Virus record (IMG/VR): IMGVR_UViG_3300043540_000009 | Location: 1 to 33,914 of that record | DNA: 33,914 nucleotides | Direction: 5' to 3' (one strand) | From: a virus | In this document: positions 4,879-28,365 of the stretch, one piece after another | How the letters are laid out: each line of letters opens with the position of its first letter | Position numbering within the stretch: the first letter of the stretch is position 1 | The notes under the pieces: generated by a model | Seen by the model: the letters and a program-made list of their open reading frames with translations, nothing else | Told to the model about the DNA's origin: nothing | Database searches by the model: none | Made by a program: the position numbers and the translations under genes

Positions 4879-5205
4879 CTACTTCTTTCCAAACTTGGCT
4901 TGCAGCCGTTCGAGTTCTTGCCGTTCGCGTTCTTCTTGTTCGGCCAGACGCTTCTTTTCCAATGCGATTCTTGTCGAGAATTCAGCGTCAGTTTCCTGGC
5001 GGTCCTTCTTGATGTTGAAGCGAGGAGAAGGATTCGGATCGTAGTCGTAATAGAAGTGGGCGTCCCAGTCCAGGCGAGCATCTGCCCCGTGTTCTTGAAT
5101 CCACTCTGCAATTCGGTTGTACAAATCGCCCAGCGTCAATTCAAGCTCATACGGAGATACATCACTCACCGATTCCGTGATTACCTTCTTCTTTTCCTTA
5201 GCCAT
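4879..5205 (-). CDS. Hypothetical protein with C-terminal coiled coil, 108 aa
   Basis: Begins MAKEKKKVITESVSDVSPYE, has a helical middle (LTLGDLYNRIAEWIQEHGAD) and ends in a charged heptad-like helix (about residues 75-108, rich in E, R and K) that should form a coiled coil. The ATG at 5205-5203 has GGAAG 8 nt upstream and overlaps the previous stop by 8 nt (ATGGCTAA), a junction type that recurs in this genome. A longer open frame upstream runs out of phase through the preceding gene and is not used. Confidence 0.65.
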   Translation of the reverse strand: MAKEKKKVITESVSDVSPYELELTLGDLYNRIAEWIQEHGADARLDWDAHFYYDYDPNPSPRFNIKKDRQETDAEFSTRIALEKKRLAEQEERERQELERLQAKFGKK

Positions 5206-23049: not shown

Positions 23050-23780
23050 TACTTGCTACGTGCTGGTAGAATATATGAATACTTGCCTGTGCCGCTGTCA
23101 ATGTCAATCTTCAGTGCGCCCATGTCCGAGAAGTTCATCTTGCATTCTGCGCTATCGCCCAGCTTCAAGATAGAAATTACTTGACTTAGTGGCCATACCC
23201 ACTGATGCTTCAATGTGCCAGTTACGCCTGTTGCAAACGGAATAACAGTTCTGTCTGTTGGACCGCTGCCGATCGAGAAATTCAGTGTGTCCTTGTCTAG
23301 CGACACAATGAATGTGCTTTCGAACGAACCAAGAACGCCAGTGAAGCTACTCAAGCGGCTAATGCTCTTCTTGGTAGGTTCAATTGTCACGTTCCATGTT
23401 GCGCCCTTAAACGGCGGAACCTTGATTTGCTCGTTTACCATTGTTTCGCTCATAAAGCGATAGTTGGATGTCAAGCCTGCCTTGTCGTCAAACAAAATTT
23501 CAGTAGGTACAGTAGCACCTGCGCGAACTTCGTCTACAACAGTAACATCCGAACCTTCATGCAAGTCGATGAAGCCTTTTAGAAATGCCATACGAGAGAA
23601 ACCGACGGTTGTTTCAATGCCCTTGATAGGCTGATACAACTCGCCGAAAATAACCACAGTCTTATCTGCATCAATTGCTTCGATCTTTGCGTCATTTGCA
23701 GTGCCGACCAACTTAACCATATCTATGAAACCTAATGAATAGGTGTGTTTAATAATATCTTTGAGGCTGTCAATTAACAT
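23049..23780 (-). CDS. 45: DNA polymerase sliding clamp (T4 gp45-like), 243 aa
   Basis: Processivity clamp that encircles DNA and tethers the polymerase; in T4 it also activates late transcription. The pattern fits the trimeric gp45/PCNA fold: an N-terminal domain with KLVGTANDAKIEAIDADKTV, then VVIFGELYQ and GFSRMAFLKGFIDL; a central loop; and a C-terminal domain ending ECKMNFSDMGALKIDIDSGT-GKYSYILPARSK. The length is close to gp45 (228 aa). AAGGA lies 6 nt before the ATG, inside the end of the HNH endonuclease gene (11-nt overlap). Its place next to the polymerase supports the call. Confidence 0.82.
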   Translation of the reverse strand: MLIDSLKDIIKHTYSLGFIDMVKLVGTANDAKIEAIDADKTVVIFGELYQPIKGIETTVGFSRMAFLKGFIDLHEGSDVTVVDEVRAGATVPTEILFDDKAGLTSNYRFMSETMVNEQIKVPPFKGATWNVTIEPTKKSISRLSSFTGVLGSFESTFIVSLDKDTLNFSIGSGPTDRTVIPFATGVTGTLKHQWVWPLSQVISILKLGDSAECKMNFSDMGALKIDIDSGTGKYSYILPARSK

Positions 23781-24444
23781 TTTTATTCCTTTTTCGTTGT
23801 TTAGATTCGGCGATCTTCCTTTTATGTTCTTCGGATAGCGTGCGCCCTGTCAGTGATTTTGAGATGTTTAACCTTGTTGTTTCGGATCGTGTCGACCCAA
23901 TGTGTATTTCCCTAATTTTCTCGATTGTTTCGGGCTCAACTGCATGCCCCATCTTAGATTCACTCATCTTAGAACATGTTTCATCGGAAAGTTTTCTTCC
24001 GGATAGCTGTTGACTCTTTAATTCCCTGAGATATTCTGCCTTCTCCTTTCCATATTGGTCTTCGTAAGTTAACCCCTTACGTTTTCCAATATTTCCTAAA
24101 CCAATATTTCTGCGATGTTCGGCGGAAAGGGTCCTGCCAGACATCGCTTCGGAGTAAGCACGTCTTACCCAAGCATATTCCTTGTTTAGAAACCTGCCGT
24201 GATGCCTATTGTCCACTGTCATTATATGGAGTGCATAGACTAGCTTGTATTCATTGGGATAAATCTTCACTAATAGTTGATGAGCCACATAATGCTCCTC
24301 AGGACGGAGTATGACTAAGTTATCTTCGCTATTATCGCCACCCATACATTTCGGTATGATATGGTGTTTTTCCGAATAACCTTCTATTAGTGCCCTGCTT
24401 TTTGCACGCAAGATTAGATCATCATAATGCTTTTTATAATCCAT
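23770..24444 (-). CDS. Free-standing HNH homing endonuclease, 224 aa
   Basis: HNH nuclease core at about 24-60: KHHIIPKCMGGDNSEDNLVI then LRPEEHYVAH. DNA-binding NUMOD3-like repeats follow (SAEHRRNIGLGNIG, SDETCSKMSESKMG, RSETTRLNISKSLTG, SEEHKRKIAESKQR) and a very basic end. It lies between the polymerase and clamp genes, a frequent site for intruding endonuclease genes in T4-like phages, and probably cuts in one of those genes in related phages. The ribosome binding site of the clamp gene is within its 3' end. Confidence 0.92.
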   Translation of the reverse strand: MDYKKHYDDLILRAKSRALIEGYSEKHHIIPKCMGGDNSEDNLVILRPEEHYVAHQLLVKIYPNEYKLVYALHIMTVDNRHHGRFLNKEYAWVRRAYSEAMSGRTLSAEHRRNIGLGNIGKRKGLTYEDQYGKEKAEYLRELKSQQLSGRKLSDETCSKMSESKMGHAVEPETIEKIREIHIGSTRSETTRLNISKSLTGRTLSEEHKRKIAESKQRKRNKNVN

Positions 24445-24481: not shown

Positions 24482-27442
24482 TCAAAAGGCACTCATGTCG
24501 AACAAAGATTCGAACATTTCGTTTTGCTTGCTTGCTCTGGATAAGTCCCAGTTTAATACGCCTAACAAGTTTTCTACCTTCTTATCTACAATGCCTGCCA
24601 TCATTTCACTTTCGTCGAACGGCAGTGTAAGGAACCAATCCGGCAAGTGTACTTCGTCCACAGGATATGCAATGCTGGACAGATTGTTGTTTGAAGTTTC
24701 TTTCAACTTACAAACAATGACCTTCTGTCCGTCGATGATTTTCATCGCGTGCTGATCCTTGTGAATATCCTTTAGATTGTTCCAGGCCAGACTCGCTGTA
24801 ACGTGTCCGGGTACGTGCAAATTACCAACTACGCCGCCGCCTAGCTTCTTGTGCATTGCAGCCTCTAGCTTATCACGATAGTGAGAAAGTTTGTTAACTG
24901 CTCGTGGTGTACCCATCTGCCATGGCTTCAAAGCTTCAAACTTTTCCTTGAATTCTTTGATCTTAGCAATGACTGCATTTTCACCCTTGCCGGTCAGTGT
25001 ATCCATCAGAATGTCCGACAAGAACTGTTGTACCAGTTTAGGAGTATCTGCACGCTTCAAGTCCAAGCCCATAGCCTTAACTTTACCCGGCTTACCACCT
25101 ACGTCAAGTCTGATTCCGTCCTTGTCGAACATCAATACAGCGTAACGTTTCTTAACCATCCAGATGCCCGATTCAGACACAGTTTCGCGCGAGCTTGCAA
25201 TTACTCCAGTCGATCTCTTAATAGGTACATTGAGTTTCTTGTGAAGGAACTCAGGGAAGGTTGCGGATACTGCCTTAGCAAGGGCGTTGTAGGTATCAAT
25301 AATGCTTTCCTTTGTCCACTCAACCTCACCACGTTCAATTTCTTCTCTAAGAATAGGATATGCGGAGAAGTAACACGAATCGGTATCCCCATAGACAATA
25401 GCTTTGCCATAATGGTCATATTCCCCTGTAATCATTTCATTAGTCTTGGCAGCCATGTGCTTTGTAATGGTTCTGCCCGACAAGGTAGTTGACTGACCCA
25501 AACGCTGGTCGAAGAATCGACTACCAGCGTTCAACAGAGCGCCGTATGCAGAGTTCAGGTTAATCTTTTTCACCAATTGACGCTTGTCCCAATAACCGAC
25601 GATTCGCTTAAGGTCCTTTTGGTTACGGTGAATTGCCTTTCCATCCTTGACCATCAAATTGTGCTGGTTCATGTATTGGACGACACGCTTCTTGTGTCCT
25701 TCAGCAATAATTTCCTGCAATTTTTTGGGCTTGTAGGCCTCTGCCTCTGCATACGGGTTAGCCTTGGACTCGACATCGCTAATATCGTCATTTGTCCACA
25801 AATTATCCGGCACTTTGACACCGTCAATCTTGGGATTATCCTCGATGTCAGTGTAATTGGTCATGATTCCTTGCAGAGTCTTACGTTCGCTGTACCAGCG
25901 TGTTAGTAGACTCGGAATCACACCTTCGACGTCGGTGCGGAAAATAGTACCGTTGGCACTAATGCACCATGGCTGTCCACTGTTGAAAATCAGCTCACGT
26001 AATTCAGCACCAGTTACTTCAAAGCTCTGTCCATCTTCCATATCTAGCGTCAGCTTATGTGCTGCATCGCCTTCATAGAAATAGTCCATTTCAAGAACAT
26101 TGAATCTGTCGTTCCACCAGCCTGCGAATGTGTACTTGCTACCCTTAGCTTCGTATTCTGCAATTGCCGCATTTGTATCACTTAGTCGAATTTGACCAAT
26201 GATAGTTTCTGGACTCATGTTGAATGTACGGATAACAGATGGATACAGAGACTTCATGTCGGTTGAAGCAATGTATCTGTGGAAGCCCTTTTTTGGAGTT
26301 GCTACCCAGCCACCTGCCGCTCGGGTCGCTGTATTATCCTCGCCCTTGCCGCTGTGTTTCTTGTCCGGGCATACTTGACCCTTGCTGTGTGCTTCCATCA
26401 AGACGTTCTGGTCGGTAACTGCTACCGCGCCCATTGTTGTCTGGATTAATACGCAGCTAGAATGTGCAATAGAATTGGCAAGACCGATGAAGTCGAGCTT
26501 CTTGTCTAGCTTGTCCAGCAGCATTGTATCCTGAATGTTATATTCCAGGAACTTCTTGAAGTCGTCGTTGTAGAGTTCGTCCAGCGTACCCTCATATTGA
26601 ACCTTATTTTCGCCAAGTTCAATTTCGGCAATAGCATTCAGTGCATAGCTGTGACGTTCTTCGTAGTTGTATTTCTTGTAGAGCTGCATATAGTCCACAT
26701 GCACTCGACCGATCAAGTCATACGTAGGAAGTGTCTTACCACCACGTTCAAACTCACGCACCTTAGGCTCTTGTTCCCATAGGCATAATTTTCTTGCTTC
26801 GTGGCGACCTAAGACTTTCTTGATACGATTGACTGTGTAAGGAATATCGTATGGTTCGCTGTTCCAACCGCTAAGAATGTCGGCATCCTCAATGACTTCC
26901 ATGAAGGCATTAAGCATGTCTGCTTCTTTCTCGAAAAGCACTACGTTACCAACTTCTTCCGCAATTGCTTGTGCTTCATCCCAGGAAAGAGTTTCGGGAG
27001 GCACAGCCAAACAGATAACTTCGCCTAACCATTGCAGATAGACGGAAATGGATGTGATGTAGTTATTTGCATCCGACGCTTCTGACCAGCCTGACGATTT
27101 GTCAAAGCTGGTTTCAATGTCGAAGAATGCCACGTGCATGTTTGGAGCATCTATGTTGTGATAGTTTTGCTCCAGACATCTGAAGATAGGATCGACGTCG
27201 CTTTCCCATCTCTTGGAATTAAATGCAAGTGTTTTTAGCACCTTTTGTTTTTCAACAAATGTGCGTGGCACGATTTTCTTAACCGTGTCGCCATAGATAG
27301 ACTTATGACTACCCCTAGGATCGGACAGATAGAAATGATAATCAGGCGGATATTCCTTGTAAACACGTTTTCCGTTTACACGTTCTACAATCCTGATTAC
27401 TTCGCTATCACCGCCGCGTTTGAAAAATGCGTCAATGTAAAT
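24482..27442 (-). CDS. 43: Family B DNA polymerase (T4 gp43-like), no standard start codon, about 986 aa
   Basis: Replicative polymerase with 3'-5' exonuclease. The frame has no ATG/GTG/TTG at its expected head; ATT at 27442 (AGGGG 8 nt upstream) is the first usable codon and gives 986 aa. With it, the exonuclease motif FFDIETSF has D108/E110, close to T4 D112/E114. The N-terminal text (IYIDAFFKRGGDSEVIRIVE; YHFYLSDPRGSHKSIYGD) matches the T4 N-terminal domain. Polymerase motif A is DMKSLYPS (about 395), motif B KKINLNSAYG (about 625) and motif C YGDTDS (about 684-689). The GTG at 27271 would give a 929-aa protein lacking this domain. The stop region is followed by the HNH gene. Confidence 0.9.
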   Translation of the reverse strand: MYIDAFFKRGGDSEVIRIVERVNGKRVYKEYPPDYHFYLSDPRGSHKSIYGDTVKKIVPRTFVEKQKVLKTLAFNSKRWESDVDPIFRCLEQNYHNIDAPNMHVAFFDIETSFDKSSGWSEASDANNYITSISVYLQWLGEVICLAVPPETLSWDEAQAIAEEVGNVVLFEKEADMLNAFMEVIEDADILSGWNSEPYDIPYTVNRIKKVLGRHEARKLCLWEQEPKVREFERGGKTLPTYDLIGRVHVDYMQLYKKYNYEERHSYALNAIAEIELGENKVQYEGTLDELYNDDFKKFLEYNIQDTMLLDKLDKKLDFIGLANSIAHSSCVLIQTTMGAVAVTDQNVLMEAHSKGQVCPDKKHSGKGEDNTATRAAGGWVATPKKGFHRYIASTDMKSLYPSVIRTFNMSPETIIGQIRLSDTNAAIAEYEAKGSKYTFAGWWNDRFNVLEMDYFYEGDAAHKLTLDMEDGQSFEVTGAELRELIFNSGQPWCISANGTIFRTDVEGVIPSLLTRWYSERKTLQGIMTNYTDIEDNPKIDGVKVPDNLWTNDDISDVESKANPYAEAEAYKPKKLQEIIAEGHKKRVVQYMNQHNLMVKDGKAIHRNQKDLKRIVGYWDKRQLVKKINLNSAYGALLNAGSRFFDQRLGQSTTLSGRTITKHMAAKTNEMITGEYDHYGKAIVYGDTDSCYFSAYPILREEIERGEVEWTKESIIDTYNALAKAVSATFPEFLHKKLNVPIKRSTGVIASSRETVSESGIWMVKKRYAVLMFDKDGIRLDVGGKPGKVKAMGLDLKRADTPKLVQQFLSDILMDTLTGKGENAVIAKIKEFKEKFEALKPWQMGTPRAVNKLSHYRDKLEAAMHKKLGGGVVGNLHVPGHVTASLAWNNLKDIHKDQHAMKIIDGQKVIVCKLKETSNNNLSSIAYPVDEVHLPDWFLTLPFDESEMMAGIVDKKVENLLGVLNWDLSRASKQNEMFESLFDMSAF

Positions 27443-27445
27443 TTT

Positions 27446-27643
27446 CTATTCCCCTAGATGCTGGACATTTTCTGCCCGGAAGGTATTTTGTTGGTTTACT
27501 GTGAAGGTGACTTGATCGCCTTCTTTGAAGAGGGTCTCAGACTTGAAGGCATGCTCATCAGTTCCACATGCCAACACTCCGAATTGTAATTCTGTGCTAT
27601 AACCTAGCACAATTCCAATTTTGGGAGTGCGCCCCGATATCAC
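27446..27643 (-). CDS. Cold-shock-domain-like OB-fold protein, 65 aa, GTG start
   Basis: The start is at GTG 27643, sharing GTGA with the dsbA-like stop. Sequence KIGIVLGYSTELQFGVLACG, then a LFKEGDQVTFTVNQQNTFRA-ENVQHL ending follows the five-strand pattern of cold-shock proteins (G-x-V ... GFG ... L-x-EGD-x-V-x-F-x-V ... A-x-NV). The RNP aromatic residues are only partly kept, so RNA or ssDNA binding is likely but not certain. It ends 3 nt before the polymerase frame opens. Confidence 0.5.
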   Translation of the reverse strand: MISGRTPKIGIVLGYSTELQFGVLACGTDEHAFKSETLFKEGDQVTFTVNQQNTFRAENVQHLGE

Positions 27644-27891
27644 CCCAACCCCGCGGCCTTGTAAAGGTCTTCGAGTTCGTCCCAATCTTCCCGTGCATCA
27701 TTCATGGTACCCTTATGGCATACCTTGATTAGCTTATTGAGTTGTGCTGGTTTTACTTCGAGTTCTGAAGCGATAGCTTTTACAGTATCGTTCAGACCCT
27801 CTTTCAAGTCCTCGCATTCTTGGAGGACTTGTGCCCCGTCTTTGACAAGTTGCTTCAGACGAGCAACGTTTTCGGGTGTTAATTTCGCCAT
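27640..27891 (-). CDS. dsbA: DsbA-like dsDNA-binding protein, 83 aa
   Basis: Resembles T4 DsbA, an 89-aa dsDNA-binding protein that binds near late promoters and assists late transcription. The matching part is the C-terminal helix pair LNDTVKAIASELEVKPAQLN-KLIKVCHKG followed by an acidic stretch (DAREDWDELEDLYKAAGL). It is all-helical, small and charged. A strong AGGAGT ribosome binding site lies 4 nt before the ATG, and a sigma70-like promoter 44 nt upstream. It heads the replication operon. Confidence 0.65.
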   Translation of the reverse strand: MAKLTPENVARLKQLVKDGAQVLQECEDLKEGLNDTVKAIASELEVKPAQLNKLIKVCHKGTMNDAREDWDELEDLYKAAGLG

Positions 27892-27966: not shown

Positions 27967-28365
27967 TTATTCTTTGCAGGCGCAGCGGGCAGCTTCTTTG
28001 CCCTTATAATCTTCAATTGCGGCCTTTACTGCATCTTCGGCAAGAATTGAACAATGTATCTTAACCGGAGGTAACGCAAGCTCTTCTGCAATTTGAGTAT
28101 TCTTAATGCTTCCGGCTTCGTCAAGCGTCTTACCTTTGACCCATTCCGTAACAAGAGAACTGCTGGCAATCGCCGATCCGCAGCCGTATGTCTTAAATTT
28201 CGCATCTGTGATAATACCTTCAACGACTTTAATTTGAAGTTTCATTACATCGCCACAGGCTGGTGCGCCGACCATGCCTGTACCTACGTCATTGTCGTTC
28301 TTATCTAGTGAACCCACATTGCGTGGATTTTCGTAGTGATCGATAACTTTTTCGCTGTATGCCAT
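27967..28365 (-). CDS. iscU: Fe-S cluster scaffold protein IscU, 132 aa
   Basis: Nearly the full proteobacterial IscU sequence is recognisable: MAYSEKVIDHYENPRNVGS, GMVGAPACGDVMKLQIKV, FKTYGCGSAIASSSLVTEW, AEELALPPVKIHCSILAEDA. The cluster ligands are C37, D39, C62 and C105 with H104, and the HscA-binding LPPVK (98-102) is intact. One residue is missing around 48-50 compared with E. coli, and the tail carries two extra Cys (AARCACKE). IscU receives sulfur from IscS and iron, and passes [2Fe-2S] or [4Fe-4S] clusters to target proteins. It sits between phage genes, coupled by TAATG to the upstream gene. This is strikingly bacterial in sequence and unusual for a phage. Confidence 0.96.
   Translation of the reverse strand: MAYSEKVIDHYENPRNVGSLDKNDNDVGTGMVGAPACGDVMKLQIKVVEGIITDAKFKTYGCGSAIASSSLVTEWVKGKTLDEAGSIKNTQIAEELALPPVKIHCSILAEDAVKAAIEDYKGKEAARCACKE

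Follow-up and report, generated by a model that had tools for sequence, protein, structure and literature searches.

The 33.9-kb virus fragment analysed here (hereafter the window, meaning this whole stretch) belongs to a relative of large (jumbo) phages and carries a DNA polymerase gene that raises a simple question: at which codon does its translation begin? On the minus strand, a TAG at 27448-27446 lies in the polymerase frame and is followed by AAA, ATT (27442-27440) and TAC, while the first in-frame ATG, GTG or TTG is the GTG at 27271, 57 codons past the ATT. The stop-to-stop frame covers 27445..24482 (987 aa), and the junction reads CATCT-AGGGG(27455-27451)-AATAGAAA-ATT(27442-27440)-TAC-ATT-GAC. 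An earlier reading made from the sequence alone had described this opening of the frame after the TAG without a canonical codon before the GTG, and its coordinates proved right when the sequence was re-read. The AGGGG that it placed 8 nt before the ATT is present, and counting from the ATT gave D108 and E110 for the exonuclease residues that it expected at 108/110. It left two alternatives, initiation at AUU or an indel or sequencing error that removed an ATGA start; the comparative evidence below upheld the former and contradicted the latter.

The Pfam domains DNA_pol_B_exo1 (PF03104) and DNA_pol_B (PF00136) assign the window polymerase to family B. Its N-terminal, exonuclease and polymerase domains, together with the catalytic exonuclease Asp/Glu, identify it as a T4-type (gp43) member. 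The closest match to its DNA in the annotated phage collection came from PA5oct-type Pseudomonas phages, with part of the gene aligning at ~64% nucleotide identity. In the N-terminal profile, residue 17 onward aligns with T4 gp43 from residue 15, and residue 22 onward with RB69 from residue 23; therefore, with ATT as the start, the N-terminus is as long as that of T4. A model of the N-terminal part, built from alignment A2, was mostly confident (mean pLDDT 78), contained strands at residues 4-7, 16-22, 25-31, 37-40, 46-48 and 53-57, and matched RB69 gp43 over ~390 columns with a TM-score of ~0.75 on the query. The structure from the full-length alignment A1 had a mean pLDDT of 46 and was too poor for use. 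The features of the locus, and those of a release-factor gene described at the end, are collected in Table 1.

Table 1. Coordinates of the polymerase start region and of related features (window positions unless a locus is named)
Feature	Position	Strand	Basis
DNA polymerase, T4 gp43 type, 986 aa from AUU	24482..27442	-	Pfam PF00136 E 7e-27, PF03104 E 1.7e-21; RB69 gp43 by sequence and fold
GTG, first canonical in-frame start, 57 codons downstream of ATT, rejected as main start	27269..27271	-
ATT (AUU) start codon of DNA polymerase	27440..27442	-	aligns with relatives' ATG/GTG/TTG/ATC start column; onset of coding constraint
Spacer AATAGAAA between Shine-Dalgarno and ATT, holding in-frame TAG 27448-27446	27443..27450	-	also in L002
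Shine-Dalgarno AGGGG, 8 nt upstream of ATT	27451..27455	-	sequence; duplex scan -6.4 kcal/mol; same in L002
Putative 65-aa ORF, same frame as polymerase, GTG start overlapping dsbA stop, ending in TAG	27446..27643	-
dsbA-like gene, usual upstream neighbour of polymerase	27640..27891	-	PF11126 Phage_DsbA E 1.7e-5, marginal
Release-factor gene with UGA	L160 ~16560-15880, TGA 16440-16438	-
Release-factor gene with UGA, further loci	L207, L175 (-); L330-L409

We compared this junction across relatives, as the sequence-only reading had proposed. Three scans of viral contigs with polymerase queries from the window's family returned largely the same ~70 contigs each, and a search of genome contigs from bacteria and archaea yielded no relative. 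The junction could be read in 68 loci, counting the window; at the aligned start column, 54 of them carry ATG, GTG or TTG and 14 carry ATT or ATC. ATT was found in the window, L002, L023, L031, L032, L035, L037, L053, L057, L058, L061 and L064, and ATC in L010 and L070; L032 and L035 hardly differ from each other, and the L053 and L061 junctions contain ATC-ATT, of which either codon could be the start. A canonical in-frame start upstream is absent from all 14. Every one has a Shine-Dalgarno sequence (SD) of -6.4 kcal/mol or better, and each of the other AUU/AUC relatives carries a purine tract equivalent to the AGGGG of the window. SD strength showed no significant overall difference between AUU/AUC and NTG genes, whereas the position of the SD relative to the upstream stop did differ. 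By comparison across loci, these genes thus combine two marks of an AUU/AUC/AUA start, namely no available canonical codon and a strong, well-placed SD.

Substitution patterns located the same boundary. The pN/pS of the AUU/AUC genes was 0.16 both in codons 2-8 and in codons 13-57 (0.20 and 0.16 in the AUG/GUG genes), compared with 1.03 in the 15 codons upstream of the AUU/AUC starts, indicating that coding constraint begins at the start column. A marine sister family used 65 ATG, 13 TTG and 2 GTG starts and no AUU or AUC (0/80), against 12/58 in the focal family (Fisher 1.5e-5), and the cultured relatives checked have ATG polymerase starts. With 14 of 68 loci set against none of 80 in this control family, AUU/AUC starts are not due to chance. 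On sequence evidence, a start at AUU in the window polymerase is thus strongly supported: the AGGGG would direct translation from this codon, and the initiator tRNA would presumably place fMet there.

We also searched the four large relatives G001-G004 and the window for other genes of this kind, tightening the scan after a loose version gave mostly leader-region noise; 461 gene instances were able to reveal a missing canonical start. Besides the polymerase, only two convincing AUU/AUC/AUA-type starts were seen in the four large relatives among these testable instances. One is an AUC in L156 (~19702, minus strand) preceded by an SD-like GAGGT, and the other an AUA in L173 (~13330, plus strand) preceded by an SD-like AGGAGG; in each case three relatives have AUG.

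The error and recoding ALTERNATIVES, that is, the indel and amber-readthrough readings, were rejected on comparative evidence. A sequencing or assembly indel that broke an overlapping ATG start draws its appeal from the single base by which the junction differs from an ATG. L002, a contig 92% identical from another metagenome, nevertheless keeps the same AGGGGAATAGAAAATT / AGGGGAATAGAAAATTTACATTGAC behind a different upstream sequence, and in 12 further contigs ATT or ATC stands at the same column while spacers and upstream sequences vary. The junction therefore cannot be put down to an indel in the window, and we regard this reading as practically negligible. Readthrough of the amber codon at 27448, fusing the 65-aa upstream ORF to the polymerase, would be in keeping with their shared frame and with the tRNA with a CUA anticodon encoded by three large relatives. 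However, TAG is a true stop in all three testable window genes and in nearly all testable genes of the four large relatives, L002 keeps the junction without the 65-aa ORF, and L031, L064 and others have neither a TAG at this place nor an upstream start, which makes readthrough very unlikely. Initiation at GTG 27271, the first canonical in-frame start codon, would give a main product lacking the first 57 residues and thus all six modelled strands of the N-terminal domain. Residues 2-57 are constrained as in the AUG relatives, the lost residues form strands in the A2 model, itself mostly confident and similar in fold to RB69 gp43, and the next canonical start in the other AUU/AUC relatives lies anywhere from codon 17 to codon 175. 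We consider such a product extremely improbable. As a separate observation on tRNAs, G001, G002 and G003 (L147-L186, L200-L219) each carry at least 30 tRNA genes, one of them CUA (amber-suppressor-type), and TAG is still a normal stop in these genomes.

The usual arrangement among relatives is a polymerase gene placed immediately after the dsbA-like gene. In all 45 dsbA-adjacent NTG loci, the start falls at -1 to +3 nt relative to the dsbA stop (UUAAUG, UAAGUG and similar), whereas all six dsbA-adjacent AUU/AUC loci start 10-20 nt from it with their own SD. Start codon and architecture were associated over the 67 rows bearing both traits (Fisher p 3e-7), and the independent phylogenetic contrasts agreed in direction (8/8, sign test p 0.008), the rule being tested on the same data in which it was noticed. 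In three NTG loci (L006, L027 and L030), a homing-endonuclease-like gene is inserted upstream, and the polymerase start overlaps or abuts that gene. The rule holds less cleanly in the window, L032/L035 and L031, where the stop of some upstream ORF also lies near the AUU and the polymerase may be coupled to that ORF. In the window, dsbA is 197 nt from the AUU, and the TAG of the putative 65-aa ORF ends 3 nt before it; this ORF has no homolog in the loci compared and no Pfam family, and among the loci studied it was seen only in the window. Within the focal family, a polymerase separated from dsbA and furnished with its own SD starts with AUU or AUC in nearly every case. In the marine sister family and in jumbo phages in culture, stand-alone SDs go with AUG or UUG, so detachment alone does not require AUU. 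The sequences themselves show where the start lies, that it recurs and that it goes with a detached ribosome-binding site.

Other genes around the polymerase were also recorded. An IscU/NifU-like iron-sulphur scaffold gene (window 27967-28365, minus strand; PF01592 E 2.5e-53) lies just upstream of the dsbA-like gene, and a NUMOD3/HNH homing-endonuclease-like gene (window 23770-24444, minus strand) directly downstream of the polymerase. Genes resembling the latter stand upstream of the polymerase in L006, L027, L030 and L031.

A tree of polymerase residues 10-680 accounts for the AUU/AUC state with 12 changes, and well-supported branches force at least 8 of these. Within the 58 rows of the focal family, 10 changes are needed, and placing all AUU/AUC rows in one clade was rejected by the AU test (p-AU ~1e-44). 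As judged from the sequences, AUU/AUC starts occur at scattered points of the polymerase tree and appear to have been gained or spread repeatedly. Some of these changes could reflect recombination at the gene boundary: the tree was built from codons after the junction, so recombination could have spread some junctions and led to an overcount of independent origins.

How might such a start act? Since the polymerase start overlaps the dsbA stop in most relatives, polymerase synthesis there probably relies on ribosomes coming straight from the end of dsbA, and the overlap would tie the one to the other. In several lineages, including the window, the polymerase is detached from dsbA and served by its own SD. 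IF3 discriminates against AUU, AUC and AUA (PMC4611024), a set that includes the polymerase AUU/AUC starts and the L156 AUC and L173 AUA starts. An AUU or AUC is for this reason most likely an inefficient stand-alone start, which would be sensitive to IF3 or ribosome state, and its pairing with a good SD would cap polymerase synthesis after the loss of coupling. We therefore favour, as the probable reading, that the AUU with its own SD is a low-yield, IF3-discriminated start that limits polymerase synthesis once coupling is lost; that the yield is low, that it responds to IF3 and that a low set-point is selected are what we infer here. That polymerase output is kept low in the focal family would be the simplest account. 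A scan of 18 related records, fragments among them, detected no phage-encoded IF3 (PF00707), so any discrimination would fall to the IF3 of the host. A search for an initiator-like tRNA reading AUU in four relatives (ARAGORN, by anticodon and partial sequence) returned only ordinary-looking Met and Ile tRNAs.

The AUU could also be the start and yet be neutral: a substitution that regulates nothing, is tolerated and is kept functional by a strong SD. Start codons do change often in the focal family, GTG and TTG among them, and cultured relatives pair AUG with stand-alone SDs. Set against this are the recurrence of AUU/AUC and its tie to gene architecture, the contrast between 14 of 68 polymerase loci and two other AUU/AUC/AUA starts in 461 testable instances of four relatives, the complete absence of such starts from 80 sister-family genes with detached SDs, and the loss of most yield at published AUU/AUA starts (PMC13009471). 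Neutrality is therefore unlikely in our judgement, though still worth weighing. A bolder form of the low-yield reading is tentative, and we lean against it: AUU/AUC would act as an evolved translational valve, taking the place of overlap coupling time and again in setting polymerase dosage in a jumbo-phage family, and polymerase synthesis would respond to host IF3 and ribosome state during infection.

AUU starts and translational control of a polymerase are each already known. In E. coli, AUU starts have been reported only in infC (IF3) and pcnB (PMC9410913), and the window polymerase resembles these two in its codon. Unlike infC, the product is a phage replicative polymerase rather than IF3, and the codon is labile across relatives. 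A direct autoregulatory loop as in infC is not expected, because the product is a polymerase; this fact and the lack of an IF3 gene in the 18 related records place the gene outside infC-type autoregulation. In Staphylococcus aureus, cvfC1 (AUU) and ccpN (AUA) likewise join a non-canonical start to a strong SD. AUU/AUA starts with extended SDs in this species gave ~10% of the AUG yield, one gene reaching as much as 30% in rich medium (PMC13009471). The codon of cvfC1 and ccpN is conserved, whereas that of the phage polymerase alternates with AUG, GUG and UUG according to coupling to the upstream gene. By analogy with these published AUU/AUA starts with strong SDs, infC-like regulation of the polymerase is plausible. 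T4/RB69 gp43 belongs to the same family and is also a replicative polymerase with limited translation, being autogenously repressed in T4 (PMC3014915). In T4, the protein attaches to an RNA operator hairpin located ~40 nt ahead of the gp43 start, whereas the limiter proposed for the window polymerase is the start codon itself. We found no AUU or AUC start on a phage replicative polymerase, or on any phage replication gene, in the open-access literature, subscription papers lying largely outside this search.

AUU starts are very rare in bacteria, and here an essential replication gene appears to have shifted between normal and IF3-discriminated starts many times. The shifts accompany the loss of upstream coupling and would thus provide natural replicates of a trade-off between start codon and coupling. 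Gene callers limited to ATG, GTG and TTG would truncate or mis-start the polymerase in about one-fifth of the focal family.

Two further candidates for recoding were noted. A phage class-I release factor with PCRF and RF-1 domains contains a conserved in-frame UGA in all 80 viral loci examined, at the same place and with conserved same-frame sequence on both sides. In 78 loci, the UGA was counted mechanically, and in L401 and L402, it was identified from the printed translation with a small alignment offset. With the UGA read as Trp, the domain matches were E 1.7e-21 for PCRF, which spans the UGA, and 1.7e-16 for RF-1. Judging from this conservation, the gene is a candidate for UGA readthrough control without a prfB-type frameshift. 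The polymerase genes of L061 (~4984-5025) and L067 (~2925-2965), which are mutually divergent, share a +1 frame offset ~11 codons after the polymerase start (AAT AAA AAR GGT C/GGY GAR, the slash marking the offset). This offset is a candidate programmed +1 frameshift; both contigs contain further frame breaks, so errors are possible.
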